64,000 bases of DNA from Anaerolineaceae bacterium. GTDB lineage: Bacteria > Chloroflexota > Anaerolineae > Aggregatilineales > Phototrophicaceae. The position numbers and the translations under genes are program-made. The stretch lies in NCBI GenBank assembly GCA_002699585.1, contig PABP01000013.1:62001-126000 (forward strand), in the 5' to 3' direction. Shown here one piece after another: positions 7,928-20,115 of the stretch (the stretch's first letter is position 1; every line of letters starts with the position of its first letter). The notes under the pieces were generated by a model that did no database searches, was not told the DNA's origin, and saw only the letters and a program-made list of their open reading frames with translations.

Positions 7928-10900
7928 TTACTTGAACTTATCCGGCGTAGGCCGTTCATCGCGGGAGTTGCGCCCACGGACCATATCCATTAGCTTGGTC
8001 AGTTCATGGTAGACAACAGGTACCACAACCAGGGTCAGTAGCATACTACTGAGGACGCCCCCGATCACGACTGTACCCAGTTCTTTGGCGATGATCGCAC
8101 CTTCAGACAAGCCGAGCGACAACGGAATCAAGGCGATGATGGTAGCAATCGTCGTCATGAGGATGGGACGCAGACGACGTGCGCCCGCTTCTACAAGGGC
8201 ATCATAGAGGCCCATACCGCGTTCGCTGCGATTGGAGTTCACGCGGTCGATGAGAACGATAGCGTTGGTAATCACCAGACCGAGGAGCATCAGCATACCG
8301 ATCATGGCGGATATGCCAAGCACACGATCCGTCAGGGTCAGGGCAATTGCGGCACCCACTGGCGCCACGACCACACTGAAGATGATCGCAATCCAGTAAA
8401 CTGGTGAGCCAAAGACCACAATCAGGATGACGATGATAATCACCAGGGCGATACCAATGGCGATACCGATGCCTTCAAAGCCTTCGGTTTGGATCTGGCT
8501 ATCAAAGCCCTGGCTGACAACCACGCCTTCCGGTAGTTCGACCTCTGTAGCCAGGACATCTAATGCCGTTTGCGTCAAGCCGATGGTATCTTCTGTTTCC
8601 AGCTCGGCACTATAGCTAAGGGCTGGCTGCTGGTCGATGCGGATATAGGTGGGCATACTATCATCACCAGCACCTGCTACCGTGCCAGATGATAGGTTGC
8701 TTTCAACATTGGTGATGCCATCGATGCCGTTGAGTGTTTCGATAATGGTCGGATCGAGTTCTTCAAGCACCGATTGATCCGGGCCGGACACCACAATGGC
8801 GAAACCCGCGAAGCCTTCACTGGTGAGGCTACCGGCTGCTACCGTCGTGTTCCCCTCGCCAAAGATCTCGTTAGCACGTTCACGCAAGAGCGGCACATAG
8901 CTATCAGCAAGATCGACAGAACTAATGCCACGAATAGCGATATTGGCCACATTTTCCGACACGCTGGTCGCACCAAACAGAGCTTCAAAACTGAAGCCAC
9001 TGCCGCCGACTTCTTCACTGATGGCTCCACGTTCCTCAGCGGGGATGATTTCCTCAATCGCTGCCGCCATCTCGCTCACCAGACGGTTGGTCTCCAGCAT
9101 AGAGGTGCCCTCTGGCAGATTTACATCAACGGTAAGCTGTGGCTCACCAAAATCTGGCAAGAAGGTCGTTGGGCGATTGAGGAACAACAAACCGCTCACA
9201 GCGATGGAAGCGACCGCAACCAAGATCAGGCCCCAGCGCGTCGCCACTGACGACAAGGCCAGCTTAAGCGTTGGTACGTAAAGGCGCTCGAACCAGGTCT
9301 CTTCTTCCTCAAGGATTTCATCAGGTGAGATGAAGATCGACGCCAGGGCCGGAACAACCGTAATCGCTACGATAAACGACCCGGCCAGCGCATAGGTCAC
9401 GGCAAGGCCAAACGGCAGGAAGAACTCGCCGACCAAGCCACCGGTAAAGCCCAGCGGCAGGAACACCACGACGGCAACCATCGTCGCGGAGAAGATAGCA
9501 ACCGATACATCGCGTGTGCCTTCAATGATGGCTTCGGTCTTATCAACACCGCGTTCGATCTCTCGGAAGATGTTTTCCAACACAACGATGGAGTCATCGA
9601 CGACGCGGCCAATAGCAACTGTCAGGCCGGACAACGTCATGATATTCAGGGTGAGTTCAGCAAATGGGAGCCAGCGCATCAGGATAAGCGCCATCATGAT
9701 CGACAGCGGAATGCTGATACCGATGACAACGGTACTGCGCCATGCAGGGTACGGTAGTTTACCGGGCCATACGACGATCAAGATACCCACGATGATGCCC
9801 AGGATACCAATGAAGCGCAGCAATGGATCGGCCAGATCCCAGGCCAGGCCGAGATCACCATTGGCTATCTCGTTAAAGGCAAAGATATTGAATGCCAGGA
9901 AGCCAACGGAGATCACGACAATCAGCGCACCGACAATCGCACGGCCACTCCGGCCCCACATGCCACCACTCAAGAAGATGAGGATGTTGATGATGGCGAA
10001 GAACGCCCCCAGGCTACCCTCGCGAACAACCCCACTGATGGACTCTTCAATGAAGGTGCTCTGTTCAAAGGCGATAGTGACACCAATGTCAGGGTTATTT
10101 TCGTTAACGGTATCCACAATCTCAAGAACAGCATAGTAGGCTTCGACGGTATTGGAATCCAGGGGTTTGTAGACGGTCACGTTGAGGCTGGATGCACCAT
10201 TGGTGCGCGTCACCTGCGTAGTCGGAATAAATACCTCGCTGGCTGTCGCACGTTCCTGAATGGCATCCGGCAGCGCGGCCAACACATCCGGCTGGAGCAT
10301 CTGGAGCGCCTGGGGTTGCAGGCCTGTCAGGAAATTTTCGTCGCGCTCGGCGATGTAGTTGAGGTTTTCAGCTGTTAATTCGCCCAGCAAATCGGGTGCC
10401 AGCGTAGCGCCCTGGCCAGTCAGGAAGGAATTGATGAAATCTGCTGGTGGTCCAATGGCAGCTTCAAAGCGCAGGAGGTCAGATGCATTATCAAGCGCAT
10501 CGACGCCCGGAACGAAATCGACGATGAACTGCCATGTCGGGCCTAATGCGGGTGCATCGGGGTCCGTTGGGGCAATGTCGGTATCGACTGTGTAGAGATC
10601 GGCCAGTTCCTCGGCGGCAGATGGCTGATCACCAGCAGCAATCGCTTCTACCTGGGAAGCCGTATCAGCATCGAGGGAGGCAATCACATCTTCCGGCAGT
10701 TCCGACAGGACATCCGGCGAGAGCTTGAGCAGCACTTCTGGCTCTAGTTGGCTGTAAAAATCCGGCTCATTGGCCAGGAAGTAGTTGATGAGCGCGGGGG
10801 TCAGGCTATCGAATAGGCGAACTTCATAGCCTGCGAAACGCTCAGGGACGCTGTCGTTAATCAGGTTGAGGATACTGGCAGCACTACCATCACCCAATGC

Positions 10901-12868
10901 GAGCAAATCATCGGCAGTGGCTAGAGATTGATCGGCAAATTGGGGCTGCCCTGTCAGAGTCGTCCAGACATCCCCCAATGGCGGTGAGACACCATCGAGT
11001 GCCAATACATCCGGCGAGAAGTAACCGATTGCTTCCGCATTCAGCGACGAGATGAATTCAGGATCGTTCGCCACAATAAAGGAAACGGCATCGGACGAAA
11101 TACAGCCGATGACGGTATCGGCGATATTGAAGTCGCCACCTGTTACTTGCAACAACCCCACACCACATTCATTCAGTGCAGGCACAAACTCGGCGATGTT
11201 GATGTCAGCAAAGGCCGCATTATCCTCGCCACCCTGCCCTGTCATATCGAAGCTATCGCCAAACAGCACCAGCGTATTGAAGAAATCAGAGGCACTGAGC
11301 GCTGCTGAACCAAACTGCTCGGCAATTTCGCCGCTAGGTTGGATAAACAGCAGGTCGTCAGCAGTATCCAACTCTGTGCCGAAAAGCTGGCCCATGAGCG
11401 AATAGAGTGCGGGCAATTCCGGGCCTTCAGGATAATCGGGCGCTTCAATAGCAGGCTGGCTATCGTTAGATTCATCAACTGTTTCGGTTGACTCAGTAGC
11501 GTCTGCGGATTCATCGACAGCAGGTGTCGCGGCAGCCTCGTTGGTGCTGTAGATGCTGAAGGTCGCCAGCGGTAGATCAGCAAAGCTAAAAGTGATGATC
11601 TGAGGCGGTTGAATACGCCACGAACTCGGCATATCTTGTGGAGCCGTAACGGTATCACCTGTCAGGCTGGTCGCTAAAGCAGCAGCGGCCAGGGCATCAC
11701 GGGTGAACCCATCAAGACCATCAATGAAGTCATCCGGCAGAACGGCAAATGCTTCCGCTGGGAGAGATGCAATCTGGTCACTATTGAGCGCATTTATGAG
11801 CGTGGGGTCAATTTCAAGGAGTTGTGTCACATCTTCCGGTGTGAGGTCATCAGTCTGACCGAGTGCGCCTACGATATGGCCGTTTTCGTAAAGCTCATTA
11901 AAGACATCGCCCAAAGTACGCGTGAGGGTCGTCATTTCACTCAAGTCCTGGGCCGACTTAAAGCCAGGGAACTGCCAACTTTCCGGCAAGGCCGGGGCCA
12001 CCTGGAGGACTTCCGGCGCAGGCAAGTTAGCGCCAGCGACCGTTTCCGCGGTGAGTGATGACAAACCAAGGCGCTCTGCGATGACCGCACGCACTTCTGG
12101 TGTCAAGTCAAGCAGCAGTATCTTGTTATCCACAGCAGCCGTTTCGTCCAACTCCACCTGGGCGACACTTTCGCCGGGGAGGGTTTGGCCGCCACCAATC
12201 TGTACACTGGCCACGAGGGGTTCATTGGCCAACTGCGGGACCAATTCTTGTTCGATGAGGCGCTGTAGGGCTGTTTTATCAGCATCACCATCCTGCTCTG
12301 TCTGATTGGCAAGATAGCCTGCCAAACTCATAAAGGCATCGTCGCCCAAGTTCTGCCAGACTTCTGGCGAGAGCTGGAACGGCAGGTTGGCATTGCGAGC
12401 AGACAGATATACGAGCACATCACCGGGCAGGTCGGAAAGCAACGTGGTTGCAAATTCCTGGGCATCCTGACCATCGGCGGGTTCAATTGAACGGCGCGGG
12501 AACCAGACATTATCAAGCGCCTGACGGATGTCGCCTTGCAGGCGTTCCTGATCATCACCAAAGTCATTGCGGGCGATGATGATCGCACCAAATGACCCAG
12601 TTGTCGTGGATTCGATATTCACGATTTCAGGAATAGTGGCAAGTTCTGATTCTAAGCGGGTTGTGACCACGGAGCGGACTTGATCGCTGGACATGCCAGA
12701 TACCTGCGCCAGAATAATGGTCTGAGGAAACTCCACAGGGGGCAAAAGCTCCTGTTGCAATTCCGAAGCTGCTACCCCGCCCAGCACCATCAAAAGGATT
12801 ACCAGGGCAAACGTCACCAGCCGGAAGCGTACCGACAGGCGCGTGATTACATCAAATATCCAACGCAT
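7928..12868 (-). CDS. Giant RND-type transporter with ~750-residue repeat-bearing insertion
   Basis: The 1646-residue product is an RND permease of the HAE1/AcrB type: N-terminal helix, first extracytoplasmic domain, a helix bundle with the proton-relay motif GRVVDDSIVVLENI, a second extracytoplasmic domain, and a C-terminal bundle with GLVITNAIVLIDRVN. Typical members have about 1030-1100 residues. The excess is a long insertion in the first extracytoplasmic loop (roughly residues 140-880), rich in Ala, Leu, Asp and Pro, with repeats built around PDVLxxLP. No membrane-fusion or outer-membrane partner is adjacent, consistent with a single-membrane cell. The ATG at 12868 is preferred over GTG at 12886 because GAGGAGAG lies just upstream of it. 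Substrate unknown. Confidence 0.88.
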   Translation of the reverse strand: MRWIFDVITRLSVRFRLVTFALVILLMVLGGVAASELQQELLPPVEFPQTIILAQVSGMSSDQVRSVVTTRLESELATIPEIVNIESTTTGSFGAIIIARNDFGDDQERLQGDIRQALDNVWFPRRSIEPADGQDAQEFATTLLSDLPGDVLVYLSARNANLPFQLSPEVWQNLGDDAFMSLAGYLANQTEQDGDADKTALQRLIEQELVPQLANEPLVASVQIGGGQTLPGESVAQVELDETAAVDNKILLLDLTPEVRAVIAERLGLSSLTAETVAGANLPAPEVLQVAPALPESWQFPGFKSAQDLSEMTTLTRTLGDVFNELYENGHIVGALGQTDDLTPEDVTQLLEIDPTLINALNSDQIASLPAEAFAVLPDDFIDGLDGFTRDALAAAALATSLTGDTVTAPQDMPSSWRIQPPQIITFSFADLPLATFSIYSTNEAAATPAVDESADATESTETVDESNDSQPAIEAPDYPEGPELPALYSLMGQLFGTELDTADDLLFIQPSGEIAEQFGSAALSASDFFNTLVLFGDSFDMTGQGGEDNAAFADINIAEFVPALNECGVGLLQVTGGDFNIADTVIGCISSDAVSFIVANDPEFISSLNAEAIGYFSPDVLALDGVSPPLGDVWTTLTGQPQFADQSLATADDLLALGDGSAASILNLINDSVPERFAGYEVRLFDSLTPALINYFLANEPDFYSQLEPEVLLKLSPDVLSELPEDVIASLDADTASQVEAIAAGDQPSAAEELADLYTVDTDIAPTDPDAPALGPTWQFIVDFVPGVDALDNASDLLRFEAAIGPPADFINSFLTGQGATLAPDLLGELTAENLNYIAERDENFLTGLQPQALQMLQPDVLAALPDAIQERATASEVFIPTTQVTRTNGASSLNVTVYKPLDSNTVEAYYAVLEIVDTVNENNPDIGVTIAFEQSTFIEESISGVVREGSLGAFFAIINILIFLSGGMWGRSGRAIVGALIVVISVGFLAFNIFAFNEIANGDLGLAWDLADPLLRFIGILGIIVGILIVVWPGKLPYPAWRSTVVIGISIPLSIMMALILMRWLPFAELTLNIMTLSGLTVAIGRVVDDSIVVLENIFREIERGVDKTEAIIEGTRDVSVAIFSATMVAVVVFLPLGFTGGLVGEFFLPFGLAVTYALAGSFIVAITVVPALASIFISPDEILEEEETWFERLYVPTLKLALSSVATRWGLILVAVASIAVSGLLFLNRPTTFLPDFGEPQLTVDVNLPEGTSMLETNRLVSEMAAAIEEIIPAEERGAISEEVGGSGFSFEALFGATSVSENVANIAIRGISSVDLADSYVPLLRERANEIFGEGNTTVAAGSLTSEGFAGFAIVVSGPDQSVLEELDPTIIETLNGIDGITNVESNLSSGTVAGAGDDSMPTYIRIDQQPALSYSAELETEDTIGLTQTALDVLATEVELPEGVVVSQGFDSQIQTEGFEGIGIAIGIALVIIIVILIVVFGSPVYWIAIIFSVVVAPVGAAIALTLTDRVLGISAMIGMLMLLGLVITNAIVLIDRVNSNRSERGMGLYDALVEAGARRLRPILMTTIATIIALIPLSLGLSEGAIIAKELGTVVIGGVLSSMLLTLVVVPVVYHELTKLMDMVRGRNSRDERPTPDKFK

Positions 12869-13260
12869 TAATGCTTCTCTCCTCACCAGAGCGTGAATGA
12901 CAAGTGCAAGATTGACTCATAAACAGACAAGTGTGTCATCGACAAAAGAAAAAGGTACGGGAACCTCATACACGCAGATTTATGCGAAACAGATTAAGAC
13001 AGTCCATTGAGACGCTCCCATAAAGACGACCTTCAGGCTCCCCAACCGTGCGCATAATGCCATGACTAAAAATGAAGTTGTTCATGCTTTCACAATCCCA
13101 AGCGTATCTTACACCTGTGACCAAAGTAGAACAATGCAGATCATCAAACTCTCATGCCACGAGTAGACTGTGGACCTACATCAAAACCGTGAAATGGTTA
13201 GAATAAGGTGCAAGCCCAAGCACAAACCTATCGGAAGCCAAAGTCGTTGACATCACGCCT
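12869..13260. other. Divergent intergenic region between RND and ABC exporter genes
   Basis: This 392-base stretch separates two divergent export genes and must hold both promoters, but no convincing -35/-10 pair was found. GACAAGTG occurs twice, at about 12900 and 12926, a 26-bp direct spacing that might be a regulator site. No open frame in it looks like a gene. Confidence 0.4.
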
Positions 13261-15166: not shown

Positions 15167-16156
15167 TTAATAGGTGCTGGTGATGTATAGCTGCTGAATC
15201 TGTTGCAGTTGAGCCTCTTCAAAGATTATTGGTTGCGCCGTGATCGGATGGTTTTCCACCTGTGCAGCAAAGTCTTTGAGTGTCGCTGCCGGATACAGGT
15301 CCACATCGGGCCACAGCAGATGAACCAAGTAATGGATAATGGCCTGCGGAAGATACCCCCACTCCATCAAGGTATCGACAGACAATTCTTCAAACGGATC
15401 ACGCGCATTTGAGAAAATAATTTCCGGGACGAATATTTCTTCTGGACGATTGGCCTTTAATGCAGCGAACAGCACCTCTTCGTAAGGGCTATCTAGCTTC
15501 GCGTCGGCAGGCCGCACATCGACAGTCACACCGAAGTCGATGGCATCGACGACATGGGCAAAATAGGGTGCCGCTACGCGATCCGCGTTAATGAGCACGA
15601 AATCGGTGAGGCCATTTATTGCCTCTGTAGCCTGCCCCATCCGTCGCTTGGCCCGCGCAACGTTAAAGCGCGTGACAAATTTACCACCTTCTTTGACATG
15701 TTCTTGCATCTGTTCGGGAGTAATGTCGTCACAATCGGCATGTCCATGCCCGGTACTATCACACGCCGCATGATCTAAACTGACTGAGCAGAAACAAAAA
15801 CGAGCATACTCATCACTGTATAGCTCAAAGAATTTGTCGCGATAGACAGCATAGCGGCGACTTTGCATAAAGGGATAGTTTTCCGCTGTGTCGTAGACAT
15901 GATCTGGATACAGCCCCAGCCAATCCAACAAGTTGAGCTGTTGAATGGGCGCAAAGGGTTCTACGGGGTTGGGATCATCATCAAATACAAACAAGCGTAC
16001 CCGACCTTGCCTGGGCATGACCGTCAGTTTGGCAAGCAGCACACGCAGTGTATCCGACACAGGTAGAAATGAGCGGGATTGTATCGTTATACGCGACAGC
16101 GACTCGTGTTTGAATGCCTTATTTTTCTGTCGTTTTTTACTTGTTTGATCGCACAT
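15167..16156 (-). CDS. Glutamyl-tRNA-synthetase-like pseudoenzyme, catalytic-domain remnant
   Basis: The 329 residues align along their length with the catalytic half of class I glutamyl-tRNA synthetases. Matches are LFVFDDD (55-61) for LRIEDTD, DWLGL (78-82) for the WLGL segment, PFMQSRRYAVYRDKF (95-109) for the GPYYQS.R...Y block, CFCS (121-124) for the Cys-x-Cys of the zinc loop, and LSVDTLMEWGYLPQAIIHYL (258-277) for the conserved SV...GYLPEALLNYL helix. Both defining motifs are gone: the HIGH position reads about LPVSDT (31-36), and the KMSKR position reads SNARDP (249-254). No anticodon-binding domain follows. It is therefore unlikely to aminoacylate tRNA. Cys/His residues at 121-142 may still bind zinc. 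GGGGAAG precedes the start, so it appears translated. Function unknown. Confidence 0.75.
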   Translation of the reverse strand: MCDQTSKKRQKNKAFKHESLSRITIQSRSFLPVSDTLRVLLAKLTVMPRQGRVRLFVFDDDPNPVEPFAPIQQLNLLDWLGLYPDHVYDTAENYPFMQSRRYAVYRDKFFELYSDEYARFCFCSVSLDHAACDSTGHGHADCDDITPEQMQEHVKEGGKFVTRFNVARAKRRMGQATEAINGLTDFVLINADRVAAPYFAHVVDAIDFGVTVDVRPADAKLDSPYEEVLFAALKANRPEEIFVPEIIFSNARDPFEELSVDTLMEWGYLPQAIIHYLVHLLWPDVDLYPAATLKDFAAQVENHPITAQPIIFEEAQLQQIQQLYITSTY

Positions 16157-16171: not shown

Positions 16172-16203
16172 AGATATTCTCTAGTTGTAACTAGAGAATA
16201 TCT
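16172..16203. promoter_or_regulatory. 32-bp near-perfect palindrome upstream of the pseudo-GluRS gene
   Basis: Two perfectly complementary 15-base arms (16172-16186 and 16189-16203, starting AGATATTCTCTAG) flank a 2-base centre, 15 bases before the pseudo-GluRS start. No T run follows on either strand, so an operator is more likely than an intrinsic terminator. Confidence 0.6.
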
Positions 16204-16400
16204 GTGATGTTGCGGACGAGTTTCGTCGCAACGTCATAGAATTGTCGAAGTGGATAACTTGCATGCCTTACCCCTCTCATAATTCTTTCATCATCACACC
16301 ATTTCTTCTCATTCTTACACAGTGTGACGCTTGGTCTGAAACCGCTTTCAATATAGCCCTTTTCTAATCGCTCTAAGCGCGCGGCGCAACCGAACTTCAT
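16191..16400 (-). CDS. Possible small basic protein upstream of pseudo-GluRS gene
   Basis: A 69-residue frame beginning MKFGCAARLERLEKG has AGGA about 9 bases before its ATG and stops inside the 32-bp palindrome. It is rich in Lys/Arg and has three Cys. I recognise no family. It fills part of an otherwise gene-free 570-base interval (16157-16730) and may be a chance frame; the interval otherwise shows no clear promoter. Confidence 0.3.
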   Translation of the reverse strand: MKFGCAARLERLEKGYIESGFRPSVTLCKNEKKWCDDERIMRGVRHASYPLRQFYDVATKLVRNITDIL

Positions 16401-16730: not shown

Positions 16731-16883
16731 ATGGAACGGCTCATTCAATGGCTGTCAATCGCTCTCGTGTCCGTTGTCCTGATCGCCAGCCCCATCGCTG
16801 CTAGCCTGGACGACATCGTTAACCTGGATACACCTGCACAGATCACAGATGGCGGTGGCGACCCTGGATTCTGCTGCAGCTAA
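16731..16883 (+). CDS. Small secreted-looking peptide ending GFCCS
   Basis: This 50-residue frame has GGAG about 8 bases before its ATG. It shows a signal-peptide layout: Arg3, a hydrophobic core at about residues 5-21, and an AAS cleavage-like site near 22-24. The remaining tail of about 26 residues is acidic and ends GGGDPGFCCS, with a terminal Cys pair. A terminator follows within 60 bases, so it has its own transcription unit. It is encoded next to, and convergent with, a 1037-residue regulator. A secreted peptide signal, a small toxin or a modified-peptide precursor are all possible; no modification gene is adjacent. Too short for family recognition. Confidence 0.55.
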   Translation: MERLIQWLSIALVSVVLIASPIAASLDDIVNLDTPAQITDGGGDPGFCCS

Positions 16884-17001: not shown

Positions 17002-20000
17002 CTAAAGAAAGAACCGAATGATGGGATCAACGATTGAAATATGCTGCAAGTGGGGCACATTGTCCGGCCCAGCACGGAAGTACCTTTCAGCTTGCTGCAA
17101 ATGGTCCGGCACGATGGACACGTTATTCAGTTGGTTGAGTTCACTTTTAAGGTCATCAACCAGGGAAGCCAGCGTTTGCTCAACAGGGTCTATTTCAATG
17201 ATGCTATTGGCCATAATGCCGGTGATGCACAAGCCATAGAATGCCTCGGCAGCGAGTCTATCATGACTAATGAGATCAGCGTTACACAACGCCCTGCGAT
17301 AGTATCGGTAGGCATCTGACCAAGCAGAATACGTGAAGGCAAATCGGCCTAAATCAAGCAAAATCGCAGCTTTCATGCGTCTATCGTTGCGTGTCTGGCT
17401 TATCAGGAGGGCTAAACGTAGTTGCTGCTCTGCTTCAAGCCGGTTTTGCAACAAGAGATGGGTACGGCCGATGTTACGAATAACGCTCATTTCCAGGTAT
17501 TGATTCTGGATGTTTTTTGCACTCGTTAGCGCCTGATTGAGCACTGTCATGGCAAGTTCTGGTTGGCGACACAGATTGTACAAGGCCGCCTGGTTCAACT
17601 GCCCATAGGCAACGCGCTCCACGTTGCCCATCTCGATACTGATCTCGTGCGCTTTATCCAGATACTTTTGGCATGTATCATAGTCGTGCCTGTCGAGTGC
17701 AATGAGTGCGAGGGTTGTCGCCGCAAAGTTTTCCACGTTCAGTAGGTTCAGCCCTTTAGCAAAATCAAGGCTTTGTTGCAGGTATTTTTCCGCCAATTCG
17801 TTTTCTGTGCGGCTCCAGGCTTCGCGCCCAAGGCTGCCATAAACATAACTGAGCACATGCCCATCTTCGCTGGCAAGCGCATGATCTTTGGCCAGCTCCA
17901 GATGGGACAGATACTGTTCATCTGCTAGCCCATAGGTTGCATTGGCGAGTGAATGATACAGATGGGCGAGCAGAAGGTCATCGTCAAGCCTCTTTGCATC
18001 ATGAATTGCCATATCAAGCAGTTGAATTGCAGCGTCTTTGTCGCCTTGATCCCTGACAATATCGGCAGAAATCTGACGAATTTCTATAGCTTCGCGCGTT
18101 TTCCAATTGATCTGTAAGTGGCCAAATAGTGCTAGCAATTCCTTCGCCACTGTACGCACGCCACGTCGGTGTAGATAACGCACGAACTTGCCAAAAAGCT
18201 CAATGTCAAAAGGCATGTCTTGGGACAACGCCATACGATAGGCTTTGATGAGATTTCGGCGCTGGCTATCGAGCACGTTGGGCACATCGATATTTGCTGT
18301 AGTAAAGTCCAGCATGTGCGTCACAAAACGCGCCTGAAAGTCGTCCAGTTGTGGGATAGCGTCCGAGCCAGACAAGACACGCGCATTCACATATTGATGA
18401 AGCACACCCATCATCCTGAGGTATTCCTCATATAATTGGACGAGGTGACTGTCTTTGAGCACCTTCATTGCCATGTGAGCTTGCACCGGACTGGCCCCAA
18501 CAATGGAAATGATGTCATCCACAGTGGGCCGCTGAACCTGGTCGAATAAACTCATTACAATCAGCACATGCTGTTGATCTTCATCCAGATTGCGCCAGAG
18601 CCAAGTCAATACCGGGTCATCATCGGTGATCTTCTTCATGGCCGGGATAACCTGGCCTAATTTATGCCCACACATATCGAAGGTATTAGCGAGTAAAAAC
18701 AGCTTCTCGTGCATGCCGCCGACCAGTTCAACAATGTCGGACTCATGGTGGCGAATGTCAATAGCTTCTGAGTCATCACGCATATGTCTGAAAATAATGT
18801 TGACATTTGACAGCGTAACAGCATCAATGGTCACCGCATCGGTATCATCCCAATGATGTTCGCTACAGACAAGTACGGCGGCGTATTCCGCAGTGCGTTT
18901 GAGGAATATTTGTAGCTCGCCGGAGAAGATGTCGCCGGATTCTTCCTGATCGAAAACGAGCAGATGCGTATTGTGGGACAGGAGTTCAAAGACACTCTGA
19001 CGCTTGTTTTCATACATCAAATTGAGCAGAAACGGCTTATCCAGAGCCGTTGCTATCTCGTTCAACAAATCATCAGCGGATGTGTCACGGGTCACATCCA
19101 TCTGAATCACGGCGTAATCATCGCCTAAAGAGCGCCACGTCCGGCCAACGGCTTCCGCAATGGCTGATTTACCCGACCCACTCGCCCCCACAAGCAGGCA
19201 GAAATGATCGGTGGGGTTAACAATCAAGTGATCGAAGATATGTACCAGTTGATTGCCATACCCTGTCACATATCGACTGGCTATTTTACGTAAATCACTG
19301 GGGCTATATTTACGCTTGCCGTTCAATGCGAGGTCTTTAAGCGTTGGCTGCAGCCCCTGGGAGAACATCAGACGCCAGTCATCAGATGGCTTGCCCAATA
19401 AGACGGGCTGCGTTTTCTGCAATGAATCCATCTCGATTAAGTACATGTTTACGCGGTCCATGTGCATCCGCTTGGCATTCAGCCAGACGAGATATTGCAA
19501 CGGAATGAGGTTATCTGGAGCGCTCGCACGCCATTTTTCCGCCAGGAGACGCGCCTGCTCATATTGCTGCTGGACCATAAAATGGCGAATCAGCCGCTCT
19601 AGGACGTTGCGGTATTTACTGCGCAACCGCTTACGTAAGGAGATCAGCCAGTCACTAAAGTTGCGCTTGTCAGATCGATAACCTGCAACCAGGTCTGCTT
19701 TATACAGCTTTTCCGCTGCCAGAAGGTTGTCGAGTTGACCCGGCTCAATGACATCGCCGAATTCCGACTTCTCGACCTCTGCAAGCTCGTCAAAAGCAAG
19801 AACATCGACCCATACATCAGCACTGTCGTATGTTATAGATGGCTGATTTTTATATTTAAGGCAAATGTCAACAATCTCATCGGGGATATTGGACAGCGCG
19901 GTCCGGCTCAAATGGGACTTGGCATCGGCATAATAGATTGCATCTTCAGGATGATAAAGCGCCTCTACCAGATTATCACGATCATGGCGCGGCATGTTGG

Positions 20001-20115
20001 TGATGACGATATACATGAACAATTCGAGCCATGTGTCCGTTGGCTGGACCGGTTGGCCATCGACTTTAATCTGGGGGTAGGTTCCAAGTAGTTCAACAAT
20101 GATGCGCTTGGTCAT
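17002..20115 (-). CDS. SARP-like transcriptional regulator with AAA ATPase and TPR domains
   Basis: The 1037-residue product has a three-part layout. Residues 1-250 resemble the winged-helix plus bacterial transcriptional activator domain of SARP/AfsR proteins, with the typical RNFSDWLISLRKRL and following helices. A P-loop ATPase domain begins near residue 308 with GASGSGKS. The C-terminal 400 or so residues are tetratricopeptide-like helical repeats. Such proteins activate transcription after sensing a ligand, peptide or protein through the TPRs and ATPase. It is monocistronic and diverges from deoC across a region with nested inverted repeats, so it may control deoC and the aldehyde dehydrogenase. 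The small GFCCS peptide next door is a candidate ligand, as inference only. Confidence 0.8.
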   Translation of the reverse strand: MTKRIIVELLGTYPQIKVDGQPVQPTDTWLELFMYIVITNMPRHDRDNLVEALYHPEDAIYYADAKSHLSRTALSNIPDEIVDICLKYKNQPSITYDSADVWVDVLAFDELAEVEKSEFGDVIEPGQLDNLLAAEKLYKADLVAGYRSDKRNFSDWLISLRKRLRSKYRNVLERLIRHFMVQQQYEQARLLAEKWRASAPDNLIPLQYLVWLNAKRMHMDRVNMYLIEMDSLQKTQPVLLGKPSDDWRLMFSQGLQPTLKDLALNGKRKYSPSDLRKIASRYVTGYGNQLVHIFDHLIVNPTDHFCLLVGASGSGKSAIAEAVGRTWRSLGDDYAVIQMDVTRDTSADDLLNEIATALDKPFLLNLMYENKRQSVFELLSHNTHLLVFDQEESGDIFSGELQIFLKRTAEYAAVLVCSEHHWDDTDAVTIDAVTLSNVNIIFRHMRDDSEAIDIRHHESDIVELVGGMHEKLFLLANTFDMCGHKLGQVIPAMKKITDDDPVLTWLWRNLDEDQQHVLIVMSLFDQVQRPTVDDIISIVGASPVQAHMAMKVLKDSHLVQLYEEYLRMMGVLHQYVNARVLSGSDAIPQLDDFQARFVTHMLDFTTANIDVPNVLDSQRRNLIKAYRMALSQDMPFDIELFGKFVRYLHRRGVRTVAKELLALFGHLQINWKTREAIEIRQISADIVRDQGDKDAAIQLLDMAIHDAKRLDDDLLLAHLYHSLANATYGLADEQYLSHLELAKDHALASEDGHVLSYVYGSLGREAWSRTENELAEKYLQQSLDFAKGLNLLNVENFAATTLALIALDRHDYDTCQKYLDKAHEISIEMGNVERVAYGQLNQAALYNLCRQPELAMTVLNQALTSAKNIQNQYLEMSVIRNIGRTHLLLQNRLEAEQQLRLALLISQTRNDRRMKAAILLDLGRFAFTYSAWSDAYRYYRRALCNADLISHDRLAAEAFYGLCITGIMANSIIEIDPVEQTLASLVDDLKSELNQLNNVSIVPDHLQQAERYFRAGPDNVPHLQHISIVDPIIRFFL

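Follow-up and report, generated by a model that had tools for sequence, protein, structure and literature searches.

The fold of an aminoacyl-tRNA synthetase can serve a regulatory purpose in place of tRNA charging, as is the case in GCN2. HisZ and SLIMP are further examples according to PMC9437257, and in the table of synthetase paralogues given there YadB (GluQ-RS) is the sole GluRS entry. Large SARPs are transcription activators which possess an NB-ARC switch and a TPR region, and the small gene afsS is switched on by one of them, AfsR, whose gene lies next to it (PMC10972967, in excerpt). RRNPP systems, described from Firmicutes, consist of a gene for a secreted propeptide of 10-100 aa situated beside the gene of a TPR receptor of 250-500 aa (PMC10075063, in excerpt). 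The locus described here lies in a stretch of 64,000 nucleotides from an Anaerolineaceae bacterium, referred to as the window. It contains a gene for a degenerate glutamyl-tRNA synthetase (pseudo-GluRS), a STAND/TPR regulator gene and a gene for an exported-looking peptide with a cysteine tail.

The locus shares features with each of these systems. The regulator resembles large SARPs of the AfsR type in its size of about 1000 aa, in an N-terminus with weak winged-helix matches (best E 0.0015), in an NB-ARC/STAND module and in C-terminal TPRs, and a very small gene adjoins it, as afsS does in the AfsR system. It differs in the adjacent degenerate synthetase, in the exported-looking Cys peptide in place of the sigma-factor-like AfsS, and in BTAD, which is weak or undetected in most members (compared with the excerpt of PMC10972967). 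As in RRNPP systems, a small propeptide-like gene with a hydrophobic N-terminus adjoins the gene of a TPR protein, the product being 46-50 aa long in 3/3 loci of the GluRS type. With about 1040 aa (1037 aa in the window) and its STAND module, the receptor here exceeds the 250-500 aa given in the excerpt of PMC10075063; there is also an extra synthetase-like gene, and the host belongs to Chloroflexota and not to Firmicutes. HisZ, SLIMP and GCN2 come from other synthetase families, whereas here a STAND protein is the neighbour and two unrelated synthetase folds are found in the same place. A pairing of a STAND regulator with a synthetase paralogue was absent from the excerpts of PMC7159879, PMC9437257, PMC10972967 and PMC10075063, and no description of it was found in the open-access PMC literature, the scope of the search, with subscription journals and preprints lying outside it.

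A GluRS-like protein and its orthologues

The pseudo-GluRS gene is situated on the minus strand from 16156 to 15167 (15167..16156), starts with ATG and encodes 329 aa, a GluRS-like catalytic body without the HIGH motif, the KMSKR loop and the anticodon-binding domain. The sequence-only reading, which gave no strand, had proposed its similarity to the GluRS catalytic domain, and profile searches agreed with this. It matched Pfam PF00749 above the Pfam cut-off (E=4.5e-9), the bacterial GluRS model TIGR00464 with E=4.5e-23, yet with a score of 81.9 bits where the cut-off is 289.95, and GluRS 4gri in the PDB (E=7.6e-11). At these scores a chance resemblance can be dismissed, and the 329-aa ORF is homologous to the catalytic domain of GluRS.

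To locate the motifs, the protein was aligned with 20 gltX genes including that of its own genome, which were chosen by length and by the presence of K[ILM]SKR (three of the 23 loci tried failed). At the HIGH site (16055..16081, minus strand) SPTGPMHIG of gltX is replaced by QSRSFLPVS, and at the site of the KMSKR loop (15386..15397, minus strand) KLSKR is replaced by PFEE followed by a deletion, FEE being common to 3/3 pseudo-GluRS. HIGH and KMSKR are both gone in all three pseudo-GluRS known, and the earlier claim that both class I motifs are erased stands on this alignment. Among gltX columns of at least 95% conservation (n=122), the window copy retained 43; the three copies retained 43/122, 41/121 and 60/117. 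Other altered stretches in the window copy are RIEDTD, which became FVFDDD, and PTYHLA, which became AAPYFA; the Arg of TTRGQEW is retained. In GluRS these stretches belong to the glutamate/ATP site. The middle of the GluRS body is likewise retained in part. An intact gltX of 498 aa is present elsewhere in the same genome (G000:C23). A scan of genome contigs with the single pseudo-GluRS protein returned two ordinary GluRS. GluQ-RS, also a short GluRS paralogue, was rejected as the identity of the protein, since its best model scored 45.7 bits where the cut-off is 276.7, and since HIGH and KMSKR are absent. Judged by sequence, the window protein is a GluRS homologue but neither a GluRS nor a GluQ-RS.

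An AlphaFold2 model of pseudo-GluRS was obtained with pLDDT 79.9 and pTM 0.80; since it was built from a GluRS alignment (15 rows), the fold result is not independent of the homology. GluRS was the top match of this model in Foldseek (E 2.8e-21) and in VIA-align (Z 28.9 over 296 residues), and GluQ-RS 4a91 gave Z 23.6 in VIA-align. The structural search which the sequence-only reading had named as a check therefore placed GluRS first, and the non-Rossmann fold that it had named as contrary evidence was not obtained. The model predicts that the Rossmann catalytic body of GluRS is present. In its alignment with T. thermophilus GluRS 1j09, a chain of 468 residues, the protein covers positions 1-323 and therefore stops where the anticodon-binding part starts, just as had been read from the sequence. 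Chain lengths and alignment place the two orthologues likewise without an anticodon-binding domain.

Orthologues were searched with a profile built from the three short pseudo-GluRS in 98 genomes of the family at E<=1e-8 and in 154 genomes of the order at E<=1e-47, a limit at which more divergent pseudo-GluRS outside the family could be missed. Full-length short copies were found only in this genome (G000), in a congener (G001) and in another member of the family (G009). The family yielded six further short frames (G096, G065:C204, G089, G070 and G020 twice), which were rejected because they retain HIGH or KMSKR and are fragments of normal gltX genes; a broken frame accounts for the truncation in G096, contig ends for the others. 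With a single-protein query (E<=0.001), the match frames in 16 order genomes outside the family were of at least 497 aa, except a 383-aa frame (G028:C191), which was rejected as an ordinary gltX with a HIGH region, cut by a contig end. In a 400-genome sample of the phylum (E<=1e-47), the remaining 23 matches lay in open frames of 476-593 aa. A phage origin was also set aside. Viral contigs contained no relative. Among 50,697 phage records, 13 matched pseudo-GluRS at 20-30% identity, all unannotated, and these GluRS-like genes are probably host DNA.

The three pseudo-GluRS show 28-41% mutual identity and intact frames. They share the residues PYFAxVVD and FEExxVD, which are absent from gltX, and form one clade in the tree with a support of 0.998. 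The placement of this clade inside the gltX tree is not reliable (support 0.744, long branches), the branch of the window copy alone measuring 2.47 substitutions per site. The survey for conserved copies suggested by the sequence-only reading thus returned orthologues in two other genomes, with open frames in place of the premature stops which it had taken as the sign of plain decay. Open diverged frames, shared pseudo-specific residues and the shared loss of both motifs therefore disfavor the decay of a duplicated gltX. Together with the first rank of the GluRS fold, they favor the earlier proposal of a repurposed, non-catalytic GluRS paralogue.

The adjoining regulator and the small genes of the locus

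Upstream of pseudo-GluRS on the same strand, a gene for a protein of 1037-1137 aa with NTPase (STAND-like) and TPR regions was found in 3/3 genomes. In the window it is situated at 17002..20115 (minus strand) and encodes 1037 aa. The gap between the two genes is about 850-980 bp in the GluRS-type loci. Among the best five candidates per genome in 154 genomes, orthologues of the regulator at E=0 were present only in G000, G001 and G009; regulator searches scored the best five or the best two candidates per genome, so some relatives, including unpaired ones, may be missed. The sequence-only reading had suggested that pseudo-GluRS perhaps binds tRNA, glutamate or a regulator, and of these the regulator fits best, the STAND/TPR protein being its constant neighbor.

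Domain composition was analyzed in these three regulators together with five more distant complete ones described below. The Walker A motif GASGSGKS is at 19165..19188 (minus strand) in the window, and its residues G310, G313, G315 and K316 are invariant in the eight. At E<=0.01, TPR_12 was found in 8/8 and NB-ARC in 7/8, the window regulator giving 20.7 bits for NB-ARC against a cut-off of 23.5. BTAD matched two of the eight at E<=0.01. Scored in bits, it was above the cut-off of 22.1 in the G001 regulator (28.2), below it in that of G009 (20.3) and undetected in the window regulator. A profile of the eight matched many TPR proteins in the PDB, the best being an engineered one. AfsR (8k60) was matched with E=8.7e-19 in the TPR part only, where unrelated TPR proteins score better; Rap and NprR were matched in the TPR part too, and the plant NLR MLA13 in the NTPase part (E 1.2e-10). 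For the N-terminal 300 residues, nine of the ten PDB matches at E<=1 were winged-helix regulators, weak ones with a best E of 0.0015, and AfsR was not among the matches listed. By its profile matches the regulator is a STAND/TPR protein, and a possible winged-helix N-terminus followed by NB-ARC/STAND and TPR regions corresponds to the large-SARP (AfsR-type) layout, in which BTAD is the part that lacks firm support here.

Between the regulator and pseudo-GluRS, a 50-aa peptide ending in GGGDPGFCCS is encoded on the plus strand at 16731..16883 and is conserved in the two orthologous loci. An ORF of 46-50 aa in this orientation is present beside the regulator in 3/3 GluRS-type loci, with a tail ending in PGxCC (plus one residue in the window) and a hydrophobic N-terminal stretch that gives it the look of an exported peptide. 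The three peptides are similar beyond shuffles (z 7-20, 0/2000). A peptide profile gave strong matches (E<=1.5e-24) among 98 family genomes only at the three GluRS-type loci, and weak ones (E 0.002 to 0.5) in many.

A palindromic operator-like site had also been read for pseudo-GluRS. The repeat is real, a perfect inverted repeat with 14-base arms in the leader at 16173..16202, occurring once in the window and in none of 100 shuffles; of the operator claim, a strong inverted repeat is all that stands, and it is poorly conserved. The leader hairpin, with z -7.4 in the window, was weaker at the orthologous leaders (-2.2 and -0.5) and is not supported as a conserved element. The repeat overlaps the end of a 70-codon ORF just upstream of pseudo-GluRS (16191..16400, minus strand), which was rejected as a conserved partner because the small ORFs at this place in the orthologous loci do not resemble it (z 1.3-1.6). 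In the other two loci, proteins of 78 and 77 aa are encoded directly upstream of pseudo-GluRS (L034:7831-8067 and L035:10061-10294) and are mutually related (z 30). Rfam gave a single match on the three loci (E=0.18, under the gathering score), and no tRNA gene was found in the window.

On the side of pseudo-GluRS, the nearest genes in the window and in G001 encode ABC and RND transporters. An RND-type transporter of 1652 aa at 7928-12886 of the window contains, by eye, a long insert of repeated short motifs. In G009, a 1028-aa TIR-NACHT-FGE-sulfatase protein is encoded 23 bp after pseudo-GluRS on the same strand (L035:5822-8908). Its TIR part matches PADLOC defence models, and it is possible that this is an immune gene in the pseudo-GluRS operon.

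LysRS-like genes beside more distant regulators

Five more distant relatives of the regulator were found in G145, G053, G071, G063 and G065 with E values of 1.8e-136 to 6.0e-90, the next match being at 4.0e-34. Each of them adjoins a LysRS-like gene. G065 possesses a second such pair, in which the regulator is cut by the contig end, and the assemblies are fragmentary at several LysRS-type loci. In total there are nine modules in eight genomes, three of the GluRS type and six of the LysRS type. All eight regulators at E<=6e-90 (154 genomes, best five candidates each) and the cut ninth adjoin a GluRS- or LysRS-like gene. This synthetase is degenerate in eight of the nine modules, while in the remaining module it is cut off. 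At outgroup regulator loci, 0/36 had a GluRS- or LysRS-like ORF in the flanks, other synthetase families being checked by eye. In four loci the regulator and synthetase genes point the same way, and in five they diverge.

Among the five complete LysRS-like copies, the motif 3 glycines are lost in all, the motif 2 FRNE in four, and the final DR is kept in four. The sixth copy (L103) is cut off before the catalytic domain. Both motifs are kept in 27/27 canonical LysRS examined, and an ordinary lysS with FRNE and motif 3 is also present in all five LysRS-type genomes. Four LysRS-like copies scanned with NF001756 gave 364.7, 181.3, 241.6 and 155.3 bits against a cut-off of 468. The copy of G145 (L108) is the least degenerate, retaining FRNEE, the motif 3 Arg and 123/232 conserved columns against 59 to 100 in the others, and by these residues it might have residual activity. 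With the DR kept in 4/5, residual activity of some LysRS-type partners is possible. In an order-wide search with the LysRS profile (E<=1e-93), the other seven matches were canonical. In a class sample of 392 genomes (E<=1e-104), 35 genomes were matched with frames of 491-661 aa, and the 20 loci fetched were canonical. In G009, the LysRS profile detected no class II LysRS at E<=1e-10, its single match, of 1.9e-16 in a 673-aa frame, being probably AspRS; this genome may use a class I LysRS, or lysS may be missing from the assembly.

LysRS belongs to class II and its fold is unrelated to that of class I GluRS. In a tree, the eight complete regulators formed one clade (support 1.000), in which the three GluRS-paired members grouped together (0.995), as did four LysRS-paired ones (1.000); the position of that of G145 had weak support (0.508). 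On the basis of this tree and the pattern of pairing, the simplest history is one ancestral association of regulator and synthetase with at least one change of the synthetase partner.

Cys-tailed peptides flank six of the eight complete regulators. In LysRS-type loci these are ORFs with a GxC-containing tail, found in G145 (two), G053 and G065. None was found at L110, a LysRS-type locus with complete flanks, and at L111 one flank has only 52 bases. Within 1 kb of the eight regulators, seven peptide-like ORFs were counted in 14.3 kb against seven in 754,780 background bases (0.13 expected), a ratio flattered by a pattern chosen after the peptides had been seen. Similar ORFs were also observed beside distant outgroup STAND/TPR regulators without a GluRS- or LysRS-like neighbor, at L104:1152-1247 (G004) and L125:323-472 (G829). 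By such occurrences, peptide and regulator may be an older pair, wider than the module.

Possible function of the degenerate synthetases

Taken together, pseudo-GluRS would be a non-catalytic, GluRS-derived partner of the STAND/TPR regulator in a small regulatory locus that also encodes the exported Cys-tailed peptide, a reading to which we give a probability of about 0.55. The evidence is from sequence throughout; it shows the homology, the lost catalytic motifs, the recurrent pairing and the common descent of the regulators, and from these we infer physical contact between the two proteins, ligand binding, sensing and a transcriptional output. In favor of the reading, pseudo-GluRS and the regulator also diverge fast and to a similar degree, with codon position 2 the slowest to change. 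The STAND protein would act as a nucleotide-controlled transcription switch, its TPR region recognizing an internal ligand, the peptide or the two together. As a dedicated binding partner of the regulator (a clamp, co-receptor or inhibitory subunit), the dead synthetase would work through its synthetase surface and not through chemistry. As a degenerate LysRS is found in the same place, the needed property would be one that both scaffolds offer, such as a tRNA, aminoacyl-ligand or protein-docking surface, and not aminoacylation; the exchange argues against retained chemistry and for a role as scaffold or in ligand binding. Against this partner model, gene order is variable, the GluRS-type genes are separated by a gap of about 850-980 bp, some LysRS-type copies may have residual activity, the peptide is missing at L110 and the module is rare (8/154 genomes). 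A more specific version is put forward tentatively, in which an NLR-like (STAND) switch needs the dead synthetase as an exchangeable sensor subunit, GluRS and LysRS were recruited independently, and the exported P-G-x-C peptide is signal or output.

The replacement of one degenerate synthetase by an unrelated fold beside the same regulator represents a natural control, suggesting that the scaffold itself is needed. If the partner model is true, STAND/large-SARP regulators join the short list of machines using synthetase pseudoenzymes, the little-studied large SARPs gain a testable partner and ligand class, and peptide-linked regulation in Chloroflexota is pointed to. One module locus, that of G001, appears to be in the cultured strain P. 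methaneseepsis ZRK33 and would be directly testable there.

The dead synthetase could alternatively sense amino acids or tRNA charging, binding uncharged or charged tRNA-Glu or tRNA-Lys and reporting starvation to the regulator. The HisRS-like domain of GCN2 in eukaryotes reports starvation in this manner. Both partner types derive from tRNA-binding enzymes, the GluRS body still has some of its middle region, and by alignment the pseudo-LysRS keep the N-terminal part, which in LysRS contains the anticodon-binding OB fold. As pseudo-GluRS lacks its own anticodon part, however, tRNA would not be read by one part common to both types. The conserved GluRS columns are poorly retained, and a starvation sensor is expected to be commoner than the module is. 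This sensor is considered unlikely.

Another possibility is a guard-and-decoy system, in which factors of phages or competitors that attack synthetases are lured by the dead synthetase and the STAND protein acts as the NLR-like guard. NB-ARC in most of the regulators, the patchy distribution and the TIR gene of G009 are in line with this. So is the divergence of both proteins. Between the window and G001, pseudo-GluRS shows 27.6% and the regulator 27.9% identity against 82.9% for lysS and 83.5% for the flanking syntenic ABC gene (70% in the RND transporter gene comparison); the module therefore diverges fast. But no PADLOC model matched pseudo-GluRS, the regulator of the window or either protein of the L110 pair at E<=0.001; the G001 regulator was matched by one generic TPR model (E=1.8e-5). 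The architecture of the regulator is that of a transcription regulator, the neighbors on the pseudo-GluRS side in the window and G001 are transporters, and the TIR gene is found at one locus only, making a guard quite unlikely.

New or residual chemistry, in which the Cys-tailed peptide or some other substrate would be modified by the synthetase-derived protein, is very unlikely. Peptide, regulator and pseudo-GluRS do occur together in the same 3/98 family genomes, FRNEE and the motif 3 Arg are still present in L108, and PoxA, a relative of LysRS, has a protein as its substrate (PMC9437257, in excerpt). Yet both class I motifs are gone in every pseudo-GluRS and the motif 3 glycines in every complete LysRS-type copy, and one new chemistry shared by two unrelated folds is improbable.

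In both pseudo-GluRS and the regulator, changes are fewest at codon position 2 and most frequent at position 3, a pattern which by its form is that expected of selected coding sequence. A functionless relic of gltX in decay, as the long branch and the lost motifs could suggest, is highly improbable beside this pattern, the shared pseudo-specific residues, the constant neighbor, the frames kept open in three genomes despite an identity of 28-41%, and a random-substitution trial counting stops only, in which 0.3% of frames remained open at 0.2 changes per site and 0/1000 at 0.5.
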